A stretch of DNA of 64,000 nt, from assembly GCF_037975245.1 (NCBI RefSeq), contig NC_092577.1:16754013-16818012 (forward strand), read 5' to 3'. Positions within the stretch are counted from its first letter, which is position 1; the number at the start of each line of letters is the position of its first letter. The DNA is from Apostichopus japonicus. Taxonomy: Eukaryota; Echinodermata; Holothuroidea; Aspidochirotida; Stichopodidae. The position numbers were made by a program, and so were the translations under genes. The notes below the pieces were generated by a model. That model had not been told where the DNA came from, ran no database searches, and saw only the letters and a list, made by a program, of their open reading frames with translations. Shown piece after piece: positions 7,606-59,777 of the stretch.

Positions 7606-10600
7606 ATGTCAGGCTGTTCAGCCTACAGCTGTACAAACAGGGCAAACCGCTTCCATTATGACAGAGGGATAACATTCCGTAAGTTATGTTACACTACGGG
7701 GGGGGGGGTGGGGATACAAAAAGAATTTCATTCAGGATTGAATTCTATTTGAAGATCCAAAAATAAAAACTACTCTAAAAGTAAAGTTTTACTCAGAGTT
7801 ACACTTACTCTTAGTTACTGAGGCTGAAAAAAATTACAGTAGGCCTATTCTACTATGCAGAGTGCATTGCAGTGCTTGAGTGTGGAAGTAATTCTGCTTT
7901 TTATAAACGGTTTACAATTTTCCAGTCATAGCCTTCATAGTTTGCTTGCCCGAGTGCAAAACTTTGGGCCAATTTTGTGGCAGTCATGTAGTTGCAATAA
8001 TCTTTTCTTTATTGGGACCATTGCACTGGTAATTCTGTTTTAGCACAGTATTCAGTTCGTTTATATACCTTTTCATACAGATTTCCACATAGCCAGTCAG
8101 AGAGGCTTACAAAATGGACTGTCAATATGAGAAGAGAGAATTGGAAGCCATCAAAAACTTCGCTTGTTTGCTCACAGCACTTTTTGGATAAATATTTCGA
8201 TAGATCTGGGCAGAGTCTTCGTCCAGATGCTGAACCCACAGTGTTTGCTTTTCCAACACATCTCCAAAAGGTAGGATATATGCCTGACAAATTTCTAATG
8301 ACCTTTTCATTGTTTTGTTTTTGTTTCTTAATTAACCAAGTTGGAAAGAATCCCATATCTGGCACAGGTATACAAGAGATGGCCAGATATGGTCATCTTT
8401 CCACCAAGTGGTAGAGTGTTTATTTTGCGATTTATCGTCTTTCAAAAGTAATTTCATGTCTTTCTTGGGGAAAAATCTAATTTTTCTTTTACAATAATTA
8501 GTGATATTTTCATCAAAATGCTCCCAATCAAACAGTTATGTGTACTGAAACAAAGGCTCAATTCTTTTGAGCTGAGGGGAATAAAGTGCTAGATCACAAA
8601 CTGCACTTTTCTATTTTCAGTTTTAAATAAAATGAATTAGAAGCTGACACCGTTTTTCATTCCCGATCCTCTCATTTAGCACATTGTTTGTTATAATTAA
8701 CTTTGTTCTGTTTAATGTTAACAAAATAATTGGCACATGTTCAAAGTATTCTCAACTTTTGCCAGTTTTTTGCAACTTTCTTATGCATGTCAGTGTTCTC
8801 CAGGTGCTGAAATCTTTAACAGGGCAGCCTCTTACATTATCCCCACTGGAGGACTCTCAATAGTGCTTTTGCATGTTATTTGTAGGACAAAGGATGTGAT
8901 ATTTTAGGTTTGTATAATCACAAATTTCGCAAATAAAACAAGAGTTAGTTACATTTAATGTGAAATCGCAATTAAAAAGAAAAATTTAACAGGGCTGGAC
9001 ACCCTGCTAAAAGTGGTCGTGGAGGATACAGCATGTCACGATATTGTTCAAGTTGAATTTCAACGCATTCTGTTTTTGTTATTCCCTTTTCCAGTTATTC
9101 ATGTTTTCAGGTCTGCCTTGTGCCACAAGAAGATGACAGTGTTTGATTCCTGAATCAATGGTACATGCATGATTTTGTATTTTTCTATGTTGATTGTTTC
9201 TGTTGGAATTTTTACCTACCATACCTTGAAAATTTATGTCACAAAATTATTGATTCATTGCATTCATAAAATATACATTGTAATGAAGTTCTGTAAAGCA
9301 ACTAAAGTCTTGTTATAGAATTTTATTGTTTTTGGAGTATGATTGACATGTACATGTATGTGTCACACTCCCTGGGCTCTGGAATACAGCTCATGCAATG
9401 TGCAGCTTTATTCTGCGGTGTGTATGGCAGCATGGGTGTATACACAAAGTTGCATAATAATTAAGTGAATTTTTAAGTATTAATTTCAATCTTAAATGTA
9501 TTACTATTCACAAATCTACAAGCCGTAAACTACCCTCAAGAAGAGGAACTTCAGACGTGAGTCTTGAGACAGTGGAGACAGGTTCTTCCTGCACAGTTCA
9601 ACCACCCATACCTCAGCAACTCCATGTCGGTGTTTGTGATCACAGTTATGCTGTCTTAGAGTCTCCCAGGAAACTTAAGCGTAAGTTAGACAAAGCAGTA
9701 CATGAACTTGAAACATGTAAGAAAAAGTGTTTTTTGTTGCTCGACCTTCGTCTGAAAAAAGGGTTTCAAACTTCAGCACAGTGATAGATTCTTTACATAA
9801 TCAAAACCTTATATCAACCAACTGTGCTGAGATGTTGGAGTCAACCTTTAGTGGAGTCCCCAAGGAAGTCTTTCAAAGAATTATTGAACAATCAAATACT
9901 AAATAAACAGAGTAATACATACCCAGAAGACCTCCGTTCATTTGCCATGACTCTGCAGTTCTACTCAGCAAAGGCTTACGAGTATGTGAGAGAAACATTT
10001 GACCTGGCCTTACCCCATCCTCGTACAATTAGAACATGGTATTGTAGTGTAGAGGGGGACCCTGGATTCACAAAGCAAGCATTTGATGCTCTCCATGCTA
10101 AAGCCAATGACAACTTGGCACAGGGAAAGGAGACTGTATGTGCAATCATGTTCGATGAAATGGCCATACGTAAACATATTGAATATGCAAATGGAAAGTA
10201 TAGAGGTTATGTACACATTGGTACAGGTAGGTTTGATGACTCCACACCAGAAGCCAAAGATGCTTTAGTTTTTATGGCAGTGTCAGCAAATGATGCTTGG
10301 AAAATACCGCTTGGCTATTTTCTTGTATATGGTTTAAGTGGGGTAGAACGTGCAAACCTGGTCAATGAGTGTTTTCGTAGACTTCATGATAGCGGTGTAC
10401 AAGCAGTTTCTCTAACATGTGATGGGCCTTCTTGTCATTTTGCAATGATGAAATCCCTGGCAAACATGAATGTGATTGGTTTGGACCCGTCATTTCCTCA
10501 TCTATCAGAACAATCGATTAAAATTCATATTATTCTTGATGTATGCCATATGTTAAAGTTGCTCCGCAACTCATTTGCAGACATAGGAATTTTCAAAACC

Positions 10601-11964
10601 TCAGATGGTCAGACCATCAGTTGGCAGTATATAGAAGAGCTCAATAAACTCCAAGAAAAAGAGGGACTTCGATTAGGTAATAAACTAAAAAAGTGCACAT
10701 ATTGACTGGCGAAACCAAAAAATGAAGGTCAATTTGGCCGCACAGGTATTTAGTGCTAGTGTAGCAGATGCCCTGCAGTACTGCAACGAGGGATTGAAAC
10801 TCCCTCAATTATAGAGGTTGTGAGGCCACAGTTTGTTTTATAAGGCATGTTGATGCTGCATTTGATGTCCTTAACAGCAGAAATCCTTTGGGCAAAGGTG
10901 CAAAAGCTCCAATAAGAAATGGAAATGCAGATCAATTGCTTCAGATCTTGGGAAATGCTGAAAGTTTCATCCTAGGTCTTACTGATACAACCGGTACAGA
11001 AATGCATCTTACCCCAAGGAAGACTGGCTTTATAGGTTTTGCTGCCAGCATCAAAAGTATTTCAGAACTTTTTGTAGAACTTGTTGCAGGTCCTAATGCT
11101 CCAATGAAATACCTTTTAACTTATAAATTTAGTCAAGATCACATAGAGCTTTTTTTTAGTGCAGTGAGAGCCAGGGGAGGGTTCAATAATAACCCAACAG
11201 CAGGCCAATTTTGTGCGGCATACAAGCGGCTGTTAACAAGGCACGTCAAGAATGACACAGGAAATTGCATACTAAGAGACAGTACTACCATTCTTCATGT
11301 ATCCCAACCATCAGCAATAAGCATAGCACGTAAATATGGTCTTGAGCTTAGAACTCGGCCATTGCATGATGATCATGATTATGCAGATGTACCAAATTTC
11401 CAAACCATATCTGGGTACAAAGAAGCTGCAATCAATTACATTGCTGGATTTGTTGTTAAAATGATAAAGCGTCGATTGAACTGCCTCTTGTGCACAAAGG
11501 CACTGACTAATCAAAGTGGCAAGATTCATAAGTTTTTGGCACTAAAAGATCGTGGGGGTCTGCAGAAAGCATCAGACAGTGTTGTTTGTGTTTGCATGGA
11601 AACAGAAAAGTGTTTCCAAAGACTTGCAAACATTTCTGATGGAAAACTTCCACAAGGTCTTGGTGTCTCAGCAGCAATAGCATCATCTGTTCTTAATAAC
11701 TGTTCACACCGTAATCTTTTTCCTGAATTACATAATCACCAATTTCACACCACAGTAGATGATAATCATGTACACTCGCTCTTAAAGCTTGTATCATCAT
11801 GCTACACTAAAATCAAGCTGTTCCATTTAGGAAAGCAGATGACAGCCTCTGTTGCAGGACCCAAAATGCGGAAGCGATTGTCAAAACTTATTTTATTTAA
11901 CCATTTAAACTACAGAAACATAATTGACAGACCACATTTTTCATATATAAACTACATAAACTGA
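7606..11964 (+). pseudogene. P-1 THAP-domain P-element-like transposase, multi-exon, frameshifted
   Basis: A C2CH THAP zinc finger is assembled from two exons, 7606-7678 (CSAYSC, GITF) and 8081-8270 (NWKPSKTS, VCSQHF, LRPDAEPTVF), with GT-AG borders and compatible phase. A linker/coiled-coil exon lies near 9545-9780 (SPRKLKRKLDKAVHEL). The RNase H-like catalytic region is at about 9820-11964: AIMFDEMAI, LTCDGPSCHFAMMK and HIILDVCHMLKLLRN carry the likely acidic triad. SQDHIELFFSAVRARGG and the C-terminal NYIAGFVVKMIKRR and LKDRGGL follow. Frame breaks near 9900, 10690 and 10810 suggest it is inactive, though all are single-base and could be assembly indels. Comparison with P-2 is useful, because here all parts are on one strand. 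Confidence 0.88.
8271..9540. other. P-1 intron with MITE-like termini
   Basis: Long intron-like A+T-rich DNA. CAGTGTTCTCC at about 8791 and a degenerate inverse near 9030 look like the ends of a small hAT-like MITE, but the flanking duplication is not convincing. Confidence 0.35.
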
Positions 11965-16440: not shown

Positions 16441-16972
16441 TTTTCTTGATGAAATGCCCAACCATGGAGCTATAAACAGAAGGAGAAAACCCACTTTGAA
16501 GTATCATTGTAACCGACAAAATTTGATCGCCATAAGTAAACATGCCTCAGGGCACAAACACGCGTAAAGCCATCATCAGCTATTACGTAATTCATGGTAC
16601 AAAGGTCATTTCGTATAGGGTCGCTCACAACATAACAGACGCTGCGATTCTACCGTGTTTGTAATTGAAATAGTATACACAGTACTCATATATGTTACGT
16701 TACCTCCACGTGTGAGAATTTCGATAGGAATATATCTTTCATTTCTTACCGAATCATGCGAAGATTCGTACTTAATAATTAATTGTTTTCCTCAGCATAT
16801 ATTTCATCGCAATACTTGAACAAATAATGGCGGAATAGGTACTTTTAGTCAAGTATTTACCGATAAAACTTTTCTTCGTTCATTAGGCAAATAACGTTAG
16901 CGCTATTTGTTATTGCACTGGGAACCTAGGCCTAGTGTTATAAATTAACAAAATTAACAAACACGAAACATG

Positions 16973-19471
16973 GCTGCCAAAATCTTTGCATCCGCCGAGG
17001 ACATAGAGGAAAGAACTTGAAGATTTTTGGGATATTGGACATGATGAGGAGACACATGACCTGCCACTTACGATCTGTTTTTGTAATGACATAGAAGTCA
17101 CTGATAATTTAGTTCATTGCGAAGGAAAAAATTGTCAAGTCGAATGGTTTCATGTGGGCTGTGTAGAGTTTAATGATCATCTCGACGGAGATAACTGGTT
17201 TTGTTCAAACTGCAGCGATGAGGATGTGTCAGAAACATTTGGTAAGCCTATGTCATGATTTATATTTGATATACTTTTGATATTTCGTTTTGATTGACCT
17301 ATTTTTAAAATTAATTTCTTATTATTCATTAGGCTAATAACTGTAATTGCTTGAAATTGATGGGAAGTGGACTAGGCTTCCCCCTACACTAGGCTGTGGT
17401 TACTAAGCTAGTACGAGTAGTAATAGTAACCTAAGCTATTATTATTTTTAATTTCCTAATTTACAGTAATAATAACAACGTTTGCAACTTTCACAATCCT
17501 ACCATTTTGTTCTGTTCATAGTCTGTATTTTACTAACTCGTATTCATCTGTTGACCATTTTCAAATTGAAATAAATTTTTATCTTAAAGGTAGTCTGTAT
17601 AAGACCCCAAATTATAGCACGTCATAATTGTTTGAAGTTTCAAAAAGTACTTTCCTGTAGGTCTTTACTCTTCAAGTTGTTCTCAGACATTCTAAATTAA
17701 TGCACAGGATGACTGAATGTTGCAATGGGGTCAACTTCCTCCAACCTCCATGACCAGTGGTAATTTATCAGTTTGAGAGTTTTGACCAAATTTAGGTAGT
17801 CATATCTGGCATCAATACAGCATACTTTTAAGTTATTTCTTTTATTGCATGATCTTTATAACAATATTGTATAGAATAAAAAAAATTGTTATTGACAATG
17901 ACATCCACAGTTTATTAAGTGTCATCAACAGTATTCCTTTTCTCTCAGAAAGTTGCACAGACAAGGGGATTGCAACATGTATGCAACAATTGTCACAATA
18001 TTCCATTTCTTAAACCATGCTTTAGATTTCAGATGAATCTACAGATGATGCACACAATGTCCCATCATCAAGCTTTTCAGCGAAGGCAAGCAAAGGAAAA
18101 GTGAAGAAAGGGACAAAATACCAAGAATGCAAAGAGTAAGTGATGCTAGGATTATTTGGAATTGCACGTGAAGATGCCATGTGGAGAAACAATTAACATT
18201 AACAAAACAATTGATCCACCAAAGACTCGAAAAGTTGTGTATAGCTTATAAAGAATTTGTACAATGTACGTACACGTAAACACACGTACTGAATGTTCCT
18301 TAAATTGGTTGTTTGTCAGTCTGCAGTATACTGCCAGTGAACAATGCAACAGAGAATCTCCCGGACAGATATATATAGGTTCTGCAATTTTAGTGTACAT
18401 AATATTTTATTACATTATGGAAACAATTCATGTATGGCCATGTTAAATGTCTGCTGTATTGTTTCTAAGGCATCATTTTTCATTCAAAGTTCTTGAAGCA
18501 GGCCTGATAATTTATTCTTGCTTTGTCAAACAAAATATTATTGTTTCATGTCCTCTACTTTTTTTTCAGGTACGAAATCAACCTCGTCGGCTTTTACCGC
18601 AGAAAAGACAAAGGCAATTGCTATGGTCTTTTTTGTTGAATGTTTGAATTTTTTTTTTACAGACCCTTTTTATTGCTTGAACATTCCTAAAGCAAAGAAC
18701 TTGCAAGCATTTTCAAGAAAACTGATGTTTTCAAGAAAGCTGGTGGAGGAGCTTTGGACAGTGATTTTTGGGGAAAACCAGTCTCAAGGACCAGTGTTGA
18801 ATTACAAATGTTTATGCTACAACATATAGTTGAATTTATGGTGAAGCTGATGCTGGAAGAGTTTGAGAGGCTGGATGTTCCCAACGACATAAATTTGGAA
18901 GATACACTAATTGTTGACAAACATGAGGAACAAATTCTAAGATATGTAGCAGGTTATGTGCCATGTGCCCTTAAAAAACGTTACATCAAAGTTAAGAGTA
19001 CTGAGAATGCTTTAATATTTTTACAATGTTTGAAAGGAATGTCAGTTGCAGGTGAAGGTCACAGTTTTTTGGATTACAGTAAAGCCTGGGTGGAAAAACA
19101 AAATAGAGGCGGATTATTCTTAGTTAATGATAATGTTTTCATGTTTTTTAAGACTGGAATTTCACACAAAGCAAATTTTAAATATGAAGACCTTGCTTAT
19201 TTTGAGAAATAAAAATGTGAAAGACCATCTTCTGCAAAAACTTCTGCAACACAAGCAAGTTCAGAATCGGTGGGCAGATCTTGTTAAAGATTTGCTAAAC
19301 GAGGACTTAAGTGGGAGGTTGCTTCATACGTTTGTTGTTTATTGGGTAAAATTAAGAGTAAATGCTTTTGTTAGAATGTACATGGAGATAAGAAAAAAAC
19401 AAAAGAAAACTTGTAGCAAGAAAGGAGAGAAACCATTAAGAAAAGAATTGGCAAGTGAAAGCAAGGAGTAA
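16973..19471 (+). pseudogene. P-2 gene 2: ING-like PHD finger + P-type transposase C-terminal-like domain
   Basis: The first exon starts near 16973 (MAAKIFASAEDIE). A single-base frame change near 17015 leads into an acidic segment and a PHD finger at 17076-17212. The ligands follow the ING spacing: CFC, then HCEGKNC, EWFHVGC and WFCSNC. A donor follows near 17240. A short serine/lysine-rich exon runs about 18030-18127. The long last exon (about 18690-19471) reads WGKPVSRTSVELQMF, QILRYVAGYVPCALKKRY and KQNRGGLF, then, after a frame change near 19205, NRWADLVKDLL and KPLRKELA. The YVAGY and RGGL motifs match the C-terminal part of P/THAP9-type transposases. Exon joining around 18570-18700 is unresolved. 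In related elements ING-type PHD fingers bind H3K4me3; targeting is an inference here. Confidence 0.75.
17250..18020. other. P-2 gene 2 intron
   Basis: A+T-rich DNA between the PHD exon donor (GTAAGCC near 17241) and the acceptor before 18030. No separate feature recognised. Confidence 0.5.
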
Positions 19472-21144
19472 AACTGAGATTAACTTGATTGGTGTCCATA
19501 TATTTTGATTTTATATTAATAATTTTGTATACTTACATAGTTCGTTTGTTCTTTCCATGGCAAACCTCATTTTTCAAGCTTATAACAATTTTACGTTAGT
19601 TAAGAGAAATATAGTGGAACTAGAATATTGTCAGTTTTGTACAATTTTTTAACCCAAAGTTTAAACTTTGTTGTGATTATTTGTTTCCTTTATGGATGAA
19701 GGTCAAAGGTGACACATGCTTTCTCTTCAACACCACCTACTGTAGGTCTGGTACACCCTCAGAATTTACAGGTACACTATCCGCTCTAAATTGGACTATC
19801 AACTCCCACAACTCTCAACTTCGCAATATTTACACCCTCTTGAAAGAAGCACTTTAGCTCAGCATGGATGATTTTAAACTTTCCACTTCCTCCCTTTCTT
19901 TCTCTGTTGGCAAAGCTTAGTCTTCTCTACACCCCCAATAACCTCACCAGCATTTAGAATCCTTCCCACAACTTTCGCAGATGCCTAACTCCCTATCTCT
20001 CTAAAGTAAAACCCTTATACCACCTTTGGCATTTTGAGTTCCATCAACTCAACATCAATACCACCACACTGGCTCCTTCTCTTGACCCACCTTCACTCCT
20101 TAAGACACCCACTAACCCCCCCCCCTCTCACCCTGCTACCTTCCTAGGCCTTGTGTCAGCAAAATTAAAATGTATTTAGTTCCACAAGTTTAATTATATG
20201 GACATAATTCGAGCACAAAATTTGATTTCAATCCTCAACTTGGCTTTTCAATGTTATGCATATGTTTATAAGGGCACCTGTCCCTACATTACCTTTGCTA
20301 TTTCTATCATTATTTTGCTGAGCAGTGTAAACTATTGTGCTGTGAAATAATGAGAGCTGGCCAAAAAACAGAACAGCCAGTTGGAGTTCCTTTTCTGTAT
20401 ATATTGTACTAAACAAAAGGAAAATAAAACTACTTCACAGGCTAACATGAAAACTATACAAGATCAAATCACCACATTGTTATTTAAATATACGAGTTCC
20501 ACCAAAAATAATCTAGAGCACATGGTCAAATGACAATATTCTTGTAACAGAAATCCTTTAAGTACTAGTACAATAAAGGTTCAAATAAGAAATTAAAATA
20601 CTGTGAAATAAAACTACTGTAGTGCCAGCTAAATTTAGGCAGAACAATCGAATCAGTTCTAGTTCATTTACAGTACTGTTCAGTGTTGTAGATAGTGGGG
20701 GGGCAGAGTGCCCCCCCCCAGATTTTTTTTTATCTAAATGTAATGTACTCCTCTTAGTACACATATTCAGTTGAAAGAATGGAAATGATAACACCCTTTT
20801 GCATCTTAAGCCCATTTTAAACAATATTTTTCTAGGGAAGAGGATGTCCCTTATACTCCCCCCCCTCCCCAGGACATTGAGCCACCGCTCAGTGCCTGGA
20901 AATGGGGACATAAATTTGACTTTGCCCCCCCCCCACCCCATATCATAAACCTGGCTATGCCTCTGGTACTGTATTAATCAAAGAAAACATTTATGTAAAA
21001 GATATTAGAAGAGCTTTAGAACATTAACTCATTATTACAATTTACCAGTTCCACGAAAAAAAATAACATAAATTTTGGTTCTTCATATGGAAATGTACTT
21101 AAAAATTGTTCCATACGTAAAGTGAAAAAGTTGGCAAATGTGAT
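19472..21144. other. Spacer between the convergent P-2 genes
   Basis: About 1.7 kb with a pyrimidine-rich tract (about 19700-20150) that I could not assign. A 285-bp hAT-like MITE (20681-20965) also lies here. Both genes terminate into this spacer, so their poly(A) signals should be here. Confidence 0.5.
20681..20965. mobile_element. 285-bp hAT-like MITE
   Basis: Imperfect inverted ends (CAGTGTTGTAGATAG against CAGAGGCATAGCCAG) of the CAGxGGCGTAGCCAG type, G-rich just inside both ends, and flanked by GTACTGT(T/A) (20673-20680, 20966-20973). Seven of eight duplicated bases match. Non-coding; it inserted into P-2 after P-2 was established. Confidence 0.75.
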
Positions 21145-24100
21145 TTACAAACAATCTGCTTCCTCCTCTCTTGGCCTTTTGCGGCAGTTACTGCGTAATG
21201 AGCTGATTGCCTTTGAACTTGCAACCATCAAGGACAAAGCATTGTGCCCGAACTGCTCAACAGTTGGATTCTCGTTCCTGCCTCCGCAGCCCCTCTGTTT
21301 TGAAAAGTACTCCTCCAGTGGGTCTTGTGAACATTTTTCGCTTAAAATATACTTTACACCAGGGGTTTGAAGAAGTTCTTTTGTAAGTTGTACAAAAGAT
21401 TTCACTATGGGAAAAGAAAAGGACAATATTTATTAAAAACCCACTGAGAAAAAAAAAATTTAAAAAAAAAAACATGCTAATTTGATTTCTAACAATATTA
21501 GTATCCCATGGTGAATCTTGGAAGACTCAGTTGATTAATATATCAAGATGTCTAATGTTACTGTTATAAGAGTACAGTATAACACCACAACAAACTACCA
21601 AGAGAATGAAGCTCCAACTTCACACAGATGAATGCATTACCAGTTTATCAAACTTTATAACTTACCCTTTTTTTCTGGCCCCATTTGAGAAACTTTGTTT
21701 TCAAGACAGCTTTATAGAAATGGTATGTTATTTTGACCATATTCTTGACCACTTGCTTCTGTCTACTGTCACTTTCGAAATACCCAAAAGCACATACCTG
21801 TAATCTGATGTCCTGCGTAGGTTTCTCTGCTCAAGAACAGCTTGTGTCTCTCCTTCTTGGGGACATCTGTAGCTTCTTGTGCTTCTGTATTCCACTCACT
21901 TAGAAAGCCTAGGAAATCATCCTCCAGCAACTAAAAGAAATTTCAGTAAAATGATACCAAATCACATACTTCTATATCCGAAGTCTTACTTCAAGTATAC
22001 TATAAACTTTCGGAATATTTTTCAGAGCATTTCTGTTTTTTGCTCCACGGCCCAATGAAACTGTCATGTGCAACCTGGTGCTCAAATCTATTTTCTTACA
22101 AAGCTGACCATGCAGGGTTTGTCAAATCGGATCAAGAACAACATACTGTTTCTGGTGAGCACTGCAATTGGCATTTTTATGGATGACAATCAATTATAAA
22201 ATATCGTTGCCTTTTGAAGAACTTTTGACAATAGATATACGCTCTTTACATATTTTGTTCTCGTCCAGAAAGGATATTTGGCTGTCACAGGCAACTGGGT
22301 TGGAGATCAGTAGAATCCTGTGAGAATGCACATTACAAACCTAATCAGAAACATGGTTGGTTGGTTTAAAGGCACCTTATCAGCAATGATCACATAGTGC
22401 CGGCAAGGTTAGAAGAGAAGGCTTATTCAGAAGGAAAGAAAGACAAAGGTGATAGCATAAACAATATTTGAAGAGGCAGGCTGTACCTTCAATCTTTCAT
22501 CATCGATACTTCGGTACGGGGCCAGGTTAGGATTCTTGCTTTGAATGTGTTGGGTCACATTGGCAACATTCAAGCAATCGAACCAGTCATTCAATTTATT
22601 GATGAAGTGCACAGTTGATGCCATCTCATCTCTTCCCATCGACTCTATTGCATTTGCCACTGTCTTACTGAGAACCTGTAAAATATATTTAAAAAAAATA
22701 CTCATACTGATAACAAAATTCACTGTTTCGAGGCATACTTCACCAATTGCACCAATTGATATGAACAAGTAAATAATGGACAAATTGTGCAGTATAGTTG
22801 ATACAAAGTCACAAGTAAATAACTTGCATGCAGATACAATACTGAGCAAAATACTGTATGTAATAATATGACTTGCAATGCATTACCTGAGCTGCCAAGT
22901 AGACGCGCATCCTTAATGAGGGTGTAAGGTTCATGTGTTCATAAGTAAGTTTATGAACAAACCTCAACCCTGGTGCTTGGGCATTCAGCTGCTGATCCCA
23001 CTCTTGCAAAGAAAGCAGGTGGGACCATCGGATTTCTTTCCCCTGAAACTGCCATTAAAAAAAAAAAAAAAAAAAATTGTTAACATATCCCTCATTAGAA
23101 TAATACATGTAACAATATAATTTGGATTAATATACATCATTGTGATCACTGCAATTTTAGTTACAGTAGCTGCACTATTTGGGACATTAAATGTATTTGC
23201 CTTTCTAAATCCCAAACCCAACTCCTTGTCAGTACAATAATTAAATACACAAGTATGCCCACTAGGTGGGCTGCCCAGCTAGAAATCATTACACTGAACA
23301 CTACAATAGAGATATCATAATGGCTTCACATTGGAGGGGTAAAGATTTGTTTCACCTTTACAGTATTTTATGTAACAGCTGTCATTTATTATTACAACCA
23401 GTGTAAATTTTGAGTAAAATTTTTCTTTTGAAGCTATATAGCTGTAAACATTATTTCATTGAATTTGATTAAAAATGCAGGAAGCTGTCCAGTACTCCCG
23501 CTAAAGATAAATGAGAAAATGGACCAGTCAAAAGCTCTATTTCAAAATACATTAATTGATATTGTTGTTAATGTTAGAGTCAACAAATGGCCTTTAAACT
23601 GCCTAAAGGATTATCTGCGGAATGTTACATGCTTAATTTGCTACACGTGTCTACTAGCACATTTAATAAGCATGCATGCACTCACCCTAAGCATTCTTGA
23701 CTTTGAATTGCAACCAGAATTTTCCCAGTTATTCCGTGTTGTCTTTAAGAGATGAGGTACATCACAGAAGAAATAAATTCTTTCGCGTTCTCTGAACGGA
23801 TTCTGGGTGTAGTATGTAAGGCCATCATCTGTTACTGTTTCATGGAGTTTAAAGAACTTCCTATTTGGAGAAGCTCCATCGGCAATAATTGCTCTTACGC
23901 GGATGCTGAAAAGTTCCAGATGACGTATGCACCGCCAGACAATAGGAAAAAGATCATCACCTTTCAGTTCACAGGTTGTAAAATAAGCAATTGGTGCTTT
24001 AATAGTTCCAAAAATAGATCGTACCATTAGAACAAGCACATGTGATGCTAATGGTAATTTCTTTGAGTTTGTTTCTCCCTTAAATCTCCTCTCAAAATAA

Positions 24101-25584
24101 TCCAACATATTCTTGATTGGGCCAGTGTCTGTAAAACCTACAAGGCGTCCAGAGGAACCCGAAAAGACCAAGCCAGACTTGATTTTCATCTCATCCAATA
24201 TGAGGGTTACATTTTCACTAATGTCACCTGTGGTAGGCCCAATTTCACTGGACACCTTCTGAAAAACTTCCGGAATAAAACCAACCCCTGACTTACAAAA
24301 ATGAATATATTTATTTATAGTCTTTAAGCTTGGAAGAGTAAGGAAGCCACTTTGCCTGATTAAGTTGTATGCAGCTGGAGATTTACCATGGACTGCCACA
24401 CACCATTTGATTATTTCTGGGTGCCACCTCCAGCGATTTGATGGTTTCATTAGATTATTTTTCTGCTGTTCCCAAAGAAGAAATTGTGGGGACCCAGGTT
24501 TGATTTTTGATTTCATGGAGTCCTCTTCATTCATGAAAATTCCCTTCAGAAATAAGTCCTTTTCATGGTCCAACTTTATTCCTTCAACCTCAAATATTCT
24601 TTTAATTTGGTCTTCCAACTTTGAAATTGTAGTACATAAACTGTCTTTCTTCCTTTCCAAGAGTTTGAGTTTGAGTTTCTTCTGTGGGGAAGAAAGCAAG
24701 TCATTCCGTACATGTGATGTCAAGTTCGTTGGGTTCCCAACTGTACCACGTAAACGATTTCGCTTCACATACAAGGCAGTTCTGTAATGATTACACAAAT
24801 CACATCTCTGGGTTGATGGATTGCACAAAAGTTTACACTGACTGTGTCTGACTGTCATTGATGTTTTCCCATCCTTGGCTATATATTGTTCAACATTAAA
24901 GTTCTTAAATTTCACTGTGTTTACTTCAGCTTCATCAAACACATCACCATTTCCCTCGCTGATCCCAATGTCTTTAACTTTGGTTAAAAAACTCTCAACA
25001 TTGCCTTCTGACTGAAGTTCTTCTAGAGGGCTGATCCAATGTGCACAATCTTCTTTGCTTAGCTGTGCACCTAAAACATACATCTCCCATGAACCTTTTT
25101 CATTGACACATATCCTCTTCATTATGCAAGTCCCGGATTTGTTTAGTTCCACAACAATGCAGTGCCCCTCATTCATCCAAGAAAGCATTCCAAACTCAAT
25201 AGTCTTCTTCAAAAAATACCCTTGTAGATCAGTGTGTTCCTTTGTGCTTCCAGCCACTCCGCATAAAGTGCAATTTTCCGAATGTGGCTGATATGGCTGC
25301 AATGTAATATTGACAGAAGAATTTTGGCCTTTATTTTTTTTCTTCTTCCACCTTTGCAATTTGAGTGTACAACACTGGCATACAAATTCTGGGTGTACTT
25401 CAGCAACATCCAAACTAACATCTATGGACAATGCCTTCAATGCCTTCAATATCCATGACAATGCCTTCAATATCCATGAATGGTAGACCTGTTTAGATTT
25501 TGGCGCTCTGTCACTTGGGATGGTCTTTGTGCTGCCACATAGTCGGCACAACGTTCTTAAGTGCTCCAGATGGGCACTCGCCAT
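21145..25584 (-). CDS. P-2 gene 1: RAG1-N-like zinc region fused to P-type DDE transposase
   Basis: Five exons: 25584-23686, 23043-22887, 22675-22487, 21930-21798, 21404-21145 (stop TAA), about 880 residues. Residues 13-110 carry CRLCG, then IDVSLDVAEVHPEFVCQCC and YQPHSENCTLCG. This is the pattern and spacing I know from the zinc-binding N-terminal region of RAG1 (LCRxCG, IDV-x-DV-x-x-xHP, QPHSxxC). The P-type core follows: SPAAYNLIRQSGFLTLPS, LILDEMKIKSGLVF (D464), IIADGASPNRKFF (D569) and FFCDVPHLLKTTRN (D608). Exon 3 has the VLSKTVANAI segment; exon 5 has SQDPLEEYFSKQRGCGG and NENPTVEQF. The protein stops before the usual YIAGF and RGGL parts, which occur on the opposite strand. No stop interrupts the exons, but the join of exons 1 and 2 is one base out of phase at a GGGG run. 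Confidence 0.85.
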
Positions 25585-27075
25585 ACCTTGAGAAAAAGAA
25601 ATGGCACAAAGTGTAAGCAAATTGACATTATGTTTTAATTTACATGTACTTTTACTTCCCACATAAAATCAGTTCTTTCCAAATGGGTCAATAAACTTAT
25701 TGAATAAAACAGAAGGAAATTTAACTTTTGGGCATCAATGCAGTGATGTAACACTGGGACCACTGTGGCCCAGTGCAGTCAGTTCTTTGTAGTACCGTAA
25801 GGGACAGTCGGTTGATATTTTATTGCACAATTGCAGTGTAATCCAATGCATCTGGTTTGCATTGGAATCTACCAAAACTCAGGACTATTTTATGAAAATT
25901 TTCAAGGAGTCAGGAGAGGGGCCTGCACATAACTATTTAAAAAATTATCCATATTTTCAATTCCGACAGCATTGCATATAGGCTTATGGTTTGTATTTTT
26001 TATTTACTGGTGTGTGGGTCACATTGCCACTACACCGGCTTACACATGGCCTATGTAAAGTAACTTGATCCACTAGGCCCAATCTAGCTCAGGGCATGAA
26101 CCGTGAAAATATTAGGCCAATCGAATAAATATAAATCAAGCAATCGTACAGAGATTCTTCTTTTGTTGGATACTGACAATCTAAAGGCTTAATGTAGCCC
26201 TTCAATCTCAGTTAAGTGTTCACAACATGTCTAAAAATATGTATTTTCATTCACACTTGAGATTGGCCAAGCAAGGGACTAGCATTACTTATATTATAGG
26301 TAAATGCTCTCGACCCTAACACTTATTATAATAAGGCCTAGCCTAGGGCCAGGGGACTACAATTTTAACCCTTATGAAATGGGCTAATGTTCATAGATTT
26401 TAAGCATCATCATTTAATTCACTTTAAAAAACAATTACTCTTGGACTGCATCCGTGTAATTGTGCAAGCTAACACAGACGCCATTTTGTACAACACTGTC
26501 ATTTCGGCAGTCTGAGTGAAAATACATTGCAAATTCTAAGTCGAAGAGCATTTTCGTACATACCCGTACACTATCCAGTCGTTGTATACTGTGAAGAATA
26601 GGTCGTCTTCAGCACGTAAAACGATGGAGTTCTGTCCGGAGATGTCCGGAAAGCGAGAAAATCCGCGAAAAACAGGGCAGTTTTTCGGTATAAGTCACTA
26701 AAATCTGGATCTTGAAAAACACGGTTTACTCAGTGAATGTTTCGTGCAACGATATCGGGTTTGTTGTATACCAAAGATATAGCTGTTAGCGTGGGGCTTA
26801 ATCAGATTTTAATCTCAAAGCTGTCACCATGGAGCTAGAAAACAGAAGTAAACATGCATTTGACGCACTTTGAACTTTAGAAGATGCATATTCATAAGCT
26901 TTATTTGTACACAACCAGTCGTTTTATCCATTTGCGGCGGTTACAATGATGCAAGATCAAAGGAGCTCTCGCGGTCGCTTCGCACTGCCCGATGTAACAT
27001 AATCGCAACTGATATTAGTCGCGAAACTCAGCGGGGTGGTTAAGGCGATGATTGATTGTTTTACGGACATTGGAG
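25585..27075. other. P-2 upstream region of the transposase gene
   Basis: Between the transposase start codon and the right terminus. Non-coding, with a partial subterminal copy of the left end near 26829. The transposase promoter is expected here; no defined signal was identified. Confidence 0.45.
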
Positions 27076-27115
27076 AGTGGGTTTTCTCCTTCTGTTTGTA
27101 GCTCCATGGCCCAAC

Positions 27116-31519: not shown

Positions 31520-34500
31520 TCAATCCAACTCTATTCTATTAGGCAGTTTCATACAATATATTTTATTATCAAAGTTAGCTGTTACACATTTCATGACTTT
31601 AACAGTTATTAACTTAACAACAAGTACCTCTTGCCTATAATCTGATATTTGACATATATGGCTAGCTTTTGCACCAGTTTGCTGATGACTTCCAAAGTTG
31701 CATTCTTTAACTCTTTTCTCAGATATCACAAACACAACCTTCATGCCCTCTTGACCTCTTACCCTGACAATGGCTCTTATTTCACCAACTTGATTTGAAC
31801 CATATGCAACATAACAATTCTTCCTTCTACCAGTTGTTTTATTGACTCTGAAGATCTGACCATCCAATATGACACTAGAAAATTTATGTAATTCAAGTTT
31901 TTCAATGGAATCAGAGAAATAGGCTTCCAAGAGGATTCTGATGGTAGGCGATGGTTCATAATTACATGGGTTCCCTCATAGCAACACATGCAAATTCTCA
32001 CATGTTAAAAGAAACTGCCTTAACTATGATAGGGTAACCTCTTAAAAGCCCTTCTACACATTTCAAAACTGCTGGTGGGGTATTGGCAGGGAGTCGTTCA
32101 ACCCTATTACGCAAAACCTGCAGTAATGTAAAGTTTTGAGCAATCATGAGCCTGTATATATCGTGTGCCATGAAAAAGACTCTTTATTTTACGATTATAC
32201 CCTTCGAATGGAAAGCAGGAGTTGCTCCAAAGAGGAGCACAATTCCTAACAGTATCAGCTAAATGAAGTAAGAGATGAACATTGTATGACATGTTGTGGG
32301 CACCATACAACTCCTTCATTTGTAACACAAACTTAACAAGGATAATTTCACACAAGGAAATTTCATGTTCCTTTACACTGTCTTGTAACAACATCCAAAT
32401 AGCATGTACTAACAATAACATGTGAGCAAGATATGCGGAGGGAAGGACTCCTTTCAGAACGGGAAGTGAGTAAAATAAGATCCATGATCTGAACTCAGAA
32501 GCCTTCCAGTGAGCTCTTTCAGATGGTGATCTCGGGAGGCGAGTAACGTCGTTAGGTGGGCTGATGTTTTCTATCCTCTCATCAACTGTACTCAGACTGT
32601 CGCCGATGAACCATTCCTCGTTATGGTGTGTTCGGTCAAACCACAGATTCAATAAATGCTGACCCACCCCTTCACAAACGGCGTGCATGTAGTCCACAGG
32701 AAAGCCTCTAACTATATCAAATCGTGGCAGTACCAACAATGGGGATATTTCCTTGACTCCTTCCCGTGGCATACCAGAACCTAACCGAATGGCTTGGTCT
32801 TCCATACCCCTCTGAGACCTTTGCTCTGGAGGTGGAAAGTCATAGGGGTATGTCATAACATGACCACGACCTTTTGGGACAACTTCGCCTTCATGGATGC
32901 ACCATGAACATCCAAAATGTCCATTGAACTGTGTTATGCCCTGTAGCTGGCATCTTGCAACAGAGTCACAAGCACACAAAGTAGCAAACACTTTTGTGTT
33001 GTGTTCTACACCAGTTGTAGCATCGGTAAATCTCACTCCATCCTCCGCAAGATTATGAAATTCATCCACAAAAGGCTTCAAGAAAGTCGAGAATTGTGGT
33101 TTGCTTGTACCAAACCAAAGTCCACTGATCAGAATGTATTTCTTTCGAATATTTGGTGGTAGTGCTTTCACCAAACACTGGATCGGCCACACACTACCTT
33201 TACCCGACTGGAAAGCAGGCATGCCATCGCAGTTCCAAATGACTTCAATTTGTTCCTTGTTTAGAAAATGCTGGGTCAGTGATGGGGTTTCCATTATATC
33301 TCGTAATTGCGTGGATAAGGGCAAGTTAATGAAATAGAAACCATCCTTAACTAGATCCGACTTCATTATGTTGTTTTTGCCACAAACTGTGCAGGACAGA
33401 ATACTGTCCATACCAAGGTAGTTCAAGCAAGCCTTACAATAAGTATGAAATTCAACTTCCTCTGTCCTTTCATCAAAATTTTTGCTAAATAGATAGAATG
33501 TCTCGGGAAGGCAGCTTACTGGTAGATGAATATTGATCAGCTGCAGGAGATCGCGAACAGCCACTTTTGTTAAGCTGTGACGTAAAGCGAAGGCCAGAAT
33601 TGCCAATGAACTCAGTGGCTCTGTAATTAATGCTCCATCATAAAGTGGCAGACACTCTTCAGGTGGGACACCACCATTTTCTTCAAGAAGAACATGCTGC
33701 ATGGAAAGAAGAAATTCAATTCGATGTTATTTTTATTCAGAACTTGCCCATATGCAATGTAAAACAATGTAAAATACAAAATGTTATACACATTCCATAT
33801 GAAATACTGGACTTCGAAACTAGTGTAATTTGCACCATAGAGACCTTCTGATCATTGTTATTCTAATAGGTCAGGTATAAAGCTGGCAGAAATACATATT
33901 AATATTGCAGAATTTGCCACTTGATTATGTCAGTACATGCCCCCCAATACTTTATGTGGGGGGAATATAGTATCTAATATCCCCAATATTTGGGGATAGT
34001 TTTTGTGTTGCTATAAATAGAAATAATGCGTGAGATTATTAATCCAAATCATATTTGGCGGTGGCTAAACGTCCATCCAACACATGCTGCATGAAGTAAA
34101 TGACTCTTGGTGGTCGTTTCTGTGACCTGTGACCGTATAGCATGTTGTCACTCATGAGATGTCCCCCTCCCTTTTGAGATAATTTTGCACAATTGAAGGT
34201 CCTTAGTTGCGACCTGGTGCAAAGTGTTGCCAGTTTCTGATCATTTTCATATGGCCTGTTACCTACAAGATTTCTTACCGCAGGCGCGTAGCCAAGGGGG
34301 GGGGCGAAGGGGAAGACCCCCCTGGAGAATATTTGTTGTATTTATTTTTATGATATCAAAGTTTTAGAGTAGCCTTTATAAGAGGTTTGAATATTTGTAC
34401 ACCAATAAATTAACTTTGTCTGAATTTAGAATTTTTGAAAATTCCCTGATCAACATTCTTCATCATACTTCCCTCGACTCATGCAGTTTTGGCCAGTCTG

Positions 34501-57882: not shown

Positions 57883-58918
57883 GGTGACATCCCTATGTTC
57901 CGACGTCTCTATATTCCGACGTCTCTATGTTCCGACAAATTGTTTGGACTCTAATTTTTTTTACCAACATTTTTTTCGGACCCAATATTTTTTGGAGACT
58001 CAATCTCTTTGGTCCCCCATTTTTTCGGACCAAATTTTTTTTGGGGACTTAATATTTTGGGCCCCAAATTTTTTGAGACCCAATTTTTTTTGGGGGGGAC
58101 TCAATTTTTTTTAGACCAACATTTTTTCTGACCTACCTTTTTGGGGGACACCACTTTTTGGACGCACCAAATTTTTTTCAGGAAAAAAGGGCCCAAAGTT
58201 TGTTATGACCCGAATAGTGCTTGTGACCGAAAATTGCTTGTGCAACGAAATTTAATTGTTTGTACTCAAATTTTGTGGGACCAAAATCAGTTTGGTAAAA
58301 AAAAAATTGGGTCCGAAAACATGCTGGTGTCAAAAATTTGGGACCAAAAAAAAATATGGTCATAAAAATATATTGGTCTAAAATAATTTGTCCGAAAAAA
58401 TTTGGGTAAAAAAAATTAGAGTCCAAAAAATTGTCGGAACATAGAGACGTCGGAACACAGAGACGTCGGAACACAGAGACGTCGGAACACAGAGACGTCG
58501 GAACACAGAGACGTCGGAACACAGAGACGTCGGAACACAGAGACGTCGGAACACAGAGACGTCGGAACACAGAGACGTCGGAACACAGAGACGTCGGAAC
58601 ACAGAGACGTCGGAACACAGAGACGTCGGAACACAGAGACGTCGGAACACAGAGACGTCGGAACACAGAGACGTCGGAACACAGAGACGTCGGAACACAG
58701 AGACGTCGGAACACAGAGACGTCGGAACACAGAGACGTCGGAACACAGAGACGTCGGAACACAGAGACGTCGGAACACAGAGACGTCGGAACACAGAGAC
58801 GTCGGAACACAGAGACGTCGGAACACAGAGACGTCGGAACACAGAGACGTCGGAACACAGAGACGTCGGAACACAGAGACGTCGGAACATAGAGACGTCG
58901 GAACATAGAGATGTAACC
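57883..58918. mobile_element. TU-like foldback transposon with minisatellite arm
   Basis: 1,036 bp inserted in copy C; copy B (around 50870-50890) gives the empty site. The ends are inverted (GGTGACATCCCTATGTTCCG against GGTTACATCTCTATGTTCCG), flanked by a perfect 8-bp duplication GTGTCTCC (57875-57882, 58919-58926). Just inside the ends are tandem 16-bp units: about 3 on the left and about 30 on the right. Inward of these is a shared inverted block (TTGGACTCTAATTTTTTTTA), then a core of T/A homopolymers and GGACCAAAT-like words. The plan, with tandem repeats in the outer arm and an 8-bp duplication, matches the sea urchin TU foldback family as I recall it. Confidence 0.88.
58433..58911. repeat. 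16-bp minisatellite, about 30 copies
   Basis: Unit ACGTCGGAACACAGAG, almost invariant; the outer units carry T instead of C (AACATAGAG). Because 16 is not a multiple of 3, every frame cycles through all phases, giving spurious open frames with a 16-residue period on both strands. Confidence 0.97.
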
Positions 58919-59777
58919 GTGTCTCCAGCTACCAAGACGAAGGCCCTTTGTCTTTTCTGGATTCAACTTCGCCCCGGTAGCTCTCTCAAAAATAGATAGA
59001 TCCTGCGAGAGTGCGCGAAAGGAGCCCAGACTCGAAACAATACATGTCACGTCATCTGCATATTGAGCGCATTTCACTTTGGCACCCCCTGGCACAACGA
59101 ATGGAACAAGTTTGGAGTCCCTTTCCAAAAGACGAGAGAGGGACTCGCTAAACAAAACATAAAGTAATGGAGACAGAGGGCACCCCTGGCGCACCCCCCT
59201 CTCTACGTTAAAAACCTCCGAACAAAACCCATTTACGATAACAGAACTGAAACTTTCTTGATACAAAACAGAAATCCATTTACGAAAATTTGGGTGCAAC
59301 TGAAACGTCTCCAAGTGGGTGGTCTCTGCATGTATTTGTTGGCTCGCTGGACCCGAGTTTCGTTTGTCATTAGGTGGCATACTCCTATTAGAGTCTATAT
59401 CAATCCGCTCGATTGTTCTCCTCGATTGTTCTCAAGAAAAGTGCCAAAAAGCAGCGGGAGAACATCTTTTGTGACCTGTTATCAATCAATCTATTTTCTT
59501 GTGGCTTACATGTTGAAGAGCATGAATGGAAGTACATGTGGTGAGAAAATTTGGTCAATTGAGGCAATTTTAGACACCTTTAGGCCTCCCGGGAGCAGCG
59601 TAGGAAATTTGTTTACCACTGAATGAAGAGGTTTGTTTACAAGTGACGAAAAGTTTCTGGCTCGGATAGCAAAAAATCTTCACGGTCATGGTACGGAAAA
59701 TTGATGGTGCCATGAAAGGCCAATTTGTCAGCTATCCGGTGATGGGTAGCATTTAGCTAGTGAAGTTTCACTATCTA

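Follow-up and report, generated by a model that had tools for sequence, protein, structure and literature searches.

The P superfamily of DNA transposons is defined by its transposase, and the terminal inverted repeats (TIRs) of the P element start with CATG. P elements have 31-bp TIRs and 8-bp target site duplications (TSDs) and use a THAP domain as their DNA-binding domain (PMC7776569; this and the other papers with a PMC number are cited from excerpts of their text). RAG1 and RAG1L have the zinc motifs C1 to C3, Transib is without the N-terminal region (Martin et al. 2020, PMC7204232), and the TSD of Transib and RAG is 5 bp (PMC8355894). Chapaev has been assigned to the Transib superfamily, and a 2015 analysis reported the Chapa domain in no known element outside the Transib/Chapaev group, so that its fusion to the core would date back to a common ancestor (PMC4411706). 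The Guardian paper (PMC8355894) describes N-RAG-TP of Aplysia as entirely RAG1 N-terminal-like sequence; the excerpts of PMC8289069 and PMC3902484, which cite N-RAG-TP, are silent on what it encodes. Here we analyze a 64,000-nucleotide stretch of the genome of the holothurian Apostichopus japonicus (GCF_037975245.1, NC_092577.1, positions 16,754,013 to 16,818,012 of the forward strand; hereafter the window), in which we find what is very probably a cut-and-paste P-superfamily DNA transposon whose transposase carries a zinc domain with three motifs, of the RAG1 N-terminal (Chapa) type, at the position of THAP.

The transposase is encoded by a gene that we call gene 1. An initial annotation of this DNA had proposed an open frame at 23686-25584, and that frame is real, reading without a stop from 25584 down to 23686 through 633 codons. 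It lies on the minus strand, the plus-strand reading being full of stops, and makes up only the first of five exons; a second, convergent gene had been missed. A GTGAGT donor stands directly past 23686, and the five exons, whose splicing is predicted from splice sites and homology, give an 878-residue transposase with its last stop at 21145. The features of gene 1 are as follows.

23686..25584, minus strand: exon 1, with the RAG1-like zinc domain, a helix-turn-helix (HTH)-like region and the N-terminal half of the RNase H domain (open frame, donor, Pfam)
25249..25584, minus strand: RAG1-like N-terminal zinc domain, residues 1-112, with C13 and C16, C69 and C72, and H101, C105 and C108 (RAG1_imp_bd E 4e-11, residues 3-112)
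23845..24285, minus strand: P-type RNase H N-terminal half, residues 434-580, with D464 and D569 (PF21787 E 3.5e-26)
22887..23042, minus strand: exon 2, part of the GTP-binding insertion domain (splice sites, homology, Pfam)
22487..22675, minus strand: exon 3, GTP-binding insertion domain continued (splice sites, homology, Pfam)
21798..21930, minus strand: exon 4 (splice sites, homology)
21145..21404, minus strand: exon 5, with the RNase H C-terminal part, E823 (codon 21315-21313, paired with P residue 531) and the stop (PF21789 E 3.4e-7)

Counterparts of exons 2 to 5 were found by translated search, in the same order, at four relatives, L011, L013, L014 and L036 (L-numbers denote loci of the same genome, 671.6 Mb in 35 contigs, where all relatives were found), and the E823 motif is kept in all four. 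In COX1, on contig 35 of this genome, AAA stands at an expected asparagine (FST-N-HKDIG), which together with the general look of the protein points to an echinoderm. Exon 1 is open in the window copy, L011, L013 and L014, the latter three being 35-54% identical to the window protein, and the order of zinc domain followed by P core recurs at this level of divergence. We reject a chance match on the strength of this recurrence and of the two E-values obtained within one protein, 4e-11 for RAG1_imp_bd and 3.5e-26 for the P RNase H.

The core belongs to the P superfamily, as the initial annotation had held. Against the whole protein, Pfam returned TNP-like_RNaseH_N (PF21787, residues 434-580), TNP-like_GBD (PF21788, residues 611-728, E 5.7e-16) and TNP-like_RNaseH_C (PF21789, residues 816-844), all over their cut-offs, and the best match in a search of solved structures was the P transposase 6p5a (residues 515-854, E 3.2e-20). 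The P HTH domain fell under its cut-off in the window protein (E 0.015) and exceeded it in L013 and L014 (25.2 vs 23 bits). In the alignment with 6p5a, E823 pairs with E531, and D464 and D569 stand in the LDEMK and ADG motifs, respectively; the catalytic residues of the P transposase are, we take it, D230, D303 and E531. The triad first proposed for this protein was D464, D569 and D608. All three are aspartates and the first two occupy P-aligned motifs, but D608 pairs with SDTPHLIK, a P motif, and exon 5 supplies the predicted third catalytic residue, E823, in its stead.

This protein shares with the P element and THAP9 the split RNase H domain with its GTP-binding insertion, the D-D-E residues in the same motifs and an HTH-like segment, whereas at its N terminus it has a RAG1-like zinc domain where P has THAP. 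Pfam gave no THAP row for the window protein, whose N terminus is occupied by RAG1_imp_bd, and no row for the RAG1/Transib core (PF12940) at E up to 5, the core there being of P type. A search for the RAG1 core across the genome gave no match, nor did its control, and this search says nothing on absence. In NCBIfam, the window protein had no row, and L011 and L014 had one weak row each, far under cut-off. Gene 1 ends 55 residues past E823, and the P-type C-terminal domain is not within its protein.

The zinc motifs lie where they had been claimed, CRLCG starting at residue 13, IDVSLDV at 54, HPEFVCQCC at 64 and PHSENCTLC at 100. They are of the types C-x2-C-G, C-x2-C and H-x(3)-C-x2-C, in that order, and their Cys and His residues are invariant throughout two family alignments, A1 and A2, of six rows each with four rows common to both. 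Such an N terminus might also be a ZAD captured from a host zinc-finger gene, with a shared ZAD ancestry and a third motif acquired independently accounting for its likeness to RAG1, an origin that we consider unlikely. With E-values up to 1 allowed, all six A2 rows match zf-AD (best 2.5e-6), but all six also match RAG1_imp_bd (best 2e-13). In the window copy, RAG1_imp_bd is the clear winner, as initially proposed, with 43.4 bits (cut-off 23.3) to 16.1 bits for zf-AD (E 0.014; cut-off 28), a lead of 27 bits, and L011 scores 38.4 bits, over cut-off, with no zf-AD row. The scan took in eight copies and left out at least seven further loci with domain parts exceeding 42-residue fragments (including L012 and L041). 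RAG1_imp_bd is ahead of zf-AD in six of the eight, clearly in the window copy and L011 and narrowly in L013 (17.7 and 15.2 bits), L014 (18.4 and 15.2; a near-copy of L013), L025 (19.6 and 16.6) and L042 (20.0 and 15.9).

Several results weigh against placing the domain with RAG1. In L036 (21.8 bits for RAG1_imp_bd, 25.3 for zf-AD) and L040 (16.8 and 18.3), zf-AD is slightly ahead; six of the eight copies, L013, L014, L025, L036, L040 and L042, are under the RAG1_imp_bd cut-off; and a single-sequence model of the zinc domain, built from the window sequence only, has a predicted local distance difference test score of 39.6 and is uninformative on the fold. Searching the genome with zf-AD gave 15 matches to E 10, the one over cut-off being the L036 copy (28.5 bits; 25.3 in hmmscan), and RAG1_imp_bd gave two matches, both within this element family (14 candidates scored).

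Profiles were also built from A1 and A2. Among solved structures they matched RAG1 (21wb) at E 3.4e-7 and 1.2e-7, respectively, and chain 7po9 at E 0.0052 and 0.017; 7po9, titled LD30467p, is presumably a ZAD. With either of these overlapping profiles, the E-value for RAG1 is lower by four to five orders of magnitude. The RAG1 match at E 1.2e-7 spans profile columns 1-99 and includes the third motif, whose H, C and C are invariant in all rows, whereas the 7po9 match stops at column 64, having covered the first two. ZAD (zf-AD) proteins accordingly align with the zinc domain over the first two C-x2-C motifs, and the third falls outside the match. The window protein alone also matched the RAG1 N terminus 21wb (residues 4-111, E 9.4e-4). 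The zinc domain is placed on the RAG1 side because of its third motif; ZAD and RAG1 N termini are probably related.

Within the zinc domain, the window copy has a 30-bp (10-residue) repeat insertion at about 25429-25458 that the other five A1 rows are without. Elsewhere in the genome, L039 (C2:29234801-29236800, minus strand, about 18-939) is a degraded, frame-shifted fragment in which a RAG1-type N terminus and then a RING-like region can be made out by eye. Its pieces scored 16.2 bits for RAG1_imp_bd and 16.5 bits for zf-AD in Pfam, both sub-cut-off, with no RING family, and no core was recognized by eye among the frames of at least 70 residues in 9.8 kb around it, frames that were not searched with profiles. 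In L039, the genome may hold a carrier of the zinc domain in the style of RAG1/Chapaev.

Gene 1 is enclosed by the ends of a transposon, which were read as follows.

16463..27108, minus strand (that of gene 1): transposon of 10,646 bp (TIRs and exact 7-bp TSD)
16456..16462, no strand: left TSD, GCCCAAC (flank reading)
27109..27115, no strand: right TSD, GCCCAAC (flank reading)
16463..16495, plus strand: TIR of 33 bp, CATGGAGCTATAAACAGAAGGAGAAAACCCACT, with one mismatch against the other arm
27076..27108, minus strand: other arm of the TIR, pairing with 16463..16495

The TIR starts with CATG, as in P, and a TSD of several base pairs is likewise common to both; the element differs from P in length (10.6 kb here, 2.9 kb in P), and its 7-bp TSD, compared with 8 bp in Drosophila P, speaks against the assignment. 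The TSD is exactly 7 bp in all 10 elements that have this TIR and in which both ends were read, namely, the window copy, L011 and eight internally deleted copies. Outside this count are L019 and L023, each represented by a single end; L012, whose second end was not located; L025, in which a match exists for one end only; L036, where none was found; and L013 and L014, which have neither this TIR nor a TSD where their homology stops. The deleted copies have lost 25467-21250 and kept 27108-25468 and 21249 onward, and the deletion join is present in nine of the 10 loci fetched (L015-L022 and L024; not L023), spread over eight contigs. Nine loci with the 27108 end are 96.6-100% identical to each other over about 1.4 kb and 91.4-91.9% identical to the window copy (L019 not compared); L016 and L017 are identical across about 1.4 kb, yet their TSDs differ. 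With the terminal 200 bp as a DNA query of the genome, 40 matches were scored, and at least 120 bases were covered in 12, the window counted.

TIRs, exact TSDs and deleted relatives are marks of transposition. A domesticated host gene outside any transposon might account for an exon 1 that stays open in four copies despite identities of 35-54%, but the TIRs and exact TSDs, those of the window copy and L011 included, and the internally deleted relatives with exact TSDs make it highly improbable, and we reject it. A P-superfamily transposon family with a RAG1-type N terminus is real and recently mobile.

Among viral contigs, seven stretches fitted a pattern as possible relatives and none was confirmed. 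On the minus strand at L011:446 and L013+L050:10886 stands another TIR-like end, CAGGGAGTTGTAAACA, both times with CGGGTAAC ahead of it, perhaps from another repeat family. Contig C17 (37 Mb of 672 Mb) accounts for 26 of 67 matching stretches; these stretches do not count as independent copies, and THAP-type P elements are among them.

Saturation of synonymous sites, seen in most comparisons, allows only rough bounds on the ratio of nonsynonymous to synonymous change (dN/dS), with dS taken as 3. For the zinc domain and the rest of the protein, respectively, dN/dS is below 0.12 and 0.14 between the window copy and L011 and below 0.25 and 0.22 between the window copy and L014; the bounds for the second gene range from <0.20 to <0.26. 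Less favorable to constraint is the unsaturated comparison of L011 with L014, at 0.32 for the zinc domain (rest <0.24). For the nearly identical pair L013 and L014, the values are 0.18 in gene 1 and 0.76 in gene 2, from very few changes.

In a tree of the cores of 11 P-type proteins of this genome, the five RAG1-like copies taken in form one clade (99/99), other RAG1-like copies being outside the tree. All four of the other P elements examined have THAP fragments in open frames that lie upstream of the core (L043, 32.6 bits; L044, 17.1; L045, 21.3; L046, 48.7; cut-off 23.9), a look-up that assumed splicing to the core and had L047, L048 and the other P element of the window outside its sample. 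A single exchange of THAP for the RAG1-like domain would be the simplest history. That other P-type element lies at 9824-11964 of the window, on the plus strand, with two open reading frames (ORFs; RNaseH_N at E 1.3e-45, GBD and RNaseH_C), and its core is 86% identical to that of L046, which has the THAP fragment upstream.

The second gene of the transposon converges on the first.

18497..19468 (about), plus strand: gene 2, putatively related to the C-terminal domain of the P transposase, with at least two breaks in the frame of this copy and undefined 5' exons (translated relatives, profile search)

Gene 2 is present in four lineages and open in three. Stop-free frames in the same position and orientation have 321 residues in L011, 364 and 365 in L013 and L014 and 343 matched residues in L036/L037, their starts and upstream exons being undefined. 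When a profile of the four frames was run against 456 ORFs, the three pieces of the window copy itself came first, and L045, L048, the window P ORF, L043 and L046 came next, at E 0.015-0.059, ahead of an unrelated ORF at E 0.23 and an L047 ORF at E 0.46. Of these five, four are ORFs of P transposases with the C-terminal part included, and that of L048 is counted with them from its position. In hhalign, the alignment of gene 2 with the P C-terminal domain falls on the Y-x-AGY and RGGL motifs. These matches give good support to the inference that this domain has a detached relative in gene 2, and the transposase would then be split over two genes, since gene 1 stops soon past the RNase H C-terminal part.

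It is also conceivable, although rather unlikely, that gene 2 is an unrelated accessory gene. Pfam gave it no significant match and nothing of the RAG2 kind, and the individual scores are weak: hhalign probabilities are only 20% and 33% (p 0.0011 and 0.0005), and L044, itself a P transposase, is reached only at E 4. These figures tell against a detached domain; against an accessory gene stand the P-type ORFs ranked directly after the gene 2 pieces, the two motifs aligned and the end of gene 1 only 55 residues past E823. A point against the overall reading is the broken gene 2 frame of the window copy, which may therefore depend on other copies. Ten near-identical short gene 2 fragments (query 182-265; e.g., C2:14126207, C3:4702668 and C7:7645253) also occur in the genome, nine of them with a matching TIR at the same distance of 610 bp, and make up a second, smaller nonautonomous family.

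In the mechanism that we propose, the RAG1-like domain would do the job of THAP, recognizing or pairing the element ends and perhaps dimerizing; a nuclear-import role, after the name that Pfam gives this domain of RAG1, is equally open. The transposase would cut with D464, D569 and E823, using GTP, and the product of gene 2 would supply the C-terminal domain in trans. Between the ends of the window copy and L011, the 10-mers in common inside the TIR number 7, 0, 0, 0, 7 and 6 in the six end pairs, compared with means of 0.28-0.43 and maxima of 3-6 in plain shuffles. Blocks TGAAGTATCAT and CTATTACGTAATT are common to the gene 2 ends of both. That no more than two of the six pairs exceed the shuffles, and these barely, is a point against end recognition, and the shared subterminal words are weakly supported as putative binding sites.

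Set beside RAG1 and the RAGL transposons ProtoRAG and TransibSU, the element has the N-terminal zinc motifs C1, C2 and C3 in the same order, and it shares the convergent two-gene layout that excerpted descriptions give for RAGL transposons. It differs from them in that no RING and no RAG1/Transib core was found in the gene 1 protein, gene 2 has no RAG2-kind Pfam match and the TSD is 7 rather than 5 bp. Chapaev likewise is a transposon bearing a RAG1-like N-terminal zinc domain, but Chapaev is in the Transib superfamily, whereas the core here is P-type. N-RAG-TP, as far as the excerpts describe it, is also a transposon with a protein resembling the RAG1 N terminus; the element may be of the same kind, and so belong to a known family not previously typed as P, a possibility to which we give some, though limited, credence. 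We recognized no description of a RAG1-like N terminus on a P-type transposase in the open-licence PMC literature, which was covered mostly as titles and the starts of abstracts; eukaryote protein databases were outside the search, so public annotation may hold it unremarked.

Two other features of the window lie outside the transposon. At 32107-33702, on the minus strand, is a tnp2-like transposase ORF (Transposase_21, E 2.7e-10), and at about 58378-58935 is a long repetitive stretch with CSDVSVFRRLCVPTSL repeats in overlapping ORFs.

The P-type carrier contradicts the confinement of the Chapa domain to Transib/Chapaev-type elements: a P-superfamily transposon with a domain of this kind, exact TSDs and signs of constraint removes the premise of the 2015 analysis. 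A broader proposal, whose chances we judge to be even, is that unrelated DDE transposases (P, Chapaev/Transib and RAG1) have exchanged the zinc domain as a mobile module for end recognition or pairing and that this lineage is a split P-type system, with a RAG1-like catalytic subunit and a C-terminal-domain subunit from a convergent gene, in a two-gene layout attained independently of RAG1/RAG2. The architecture, with its P-type core, RAG1-type N terminus and apparently split-off C-terminal domain, is surprising and testable, and it offers a natural experiment in which two unrelated catalytic cores bear zinc domains of one kind and defined TIRs are available for binding tests. The origin of the non-core N terminus of RAG1 is an open question, for which domain exchange between transposon superfamilies becomes a testable route. 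It is fair to infer a bearing of the element on the assembly of RAG1, whichever way the transfer went. RAG1 is the enzyme that cuts antibody genes, and a zinc domain closely resembling its start, at a site usually held by another DNA-binding domain, suggests that a piece of RAG1 is shared between unrelated kinds of transposon.

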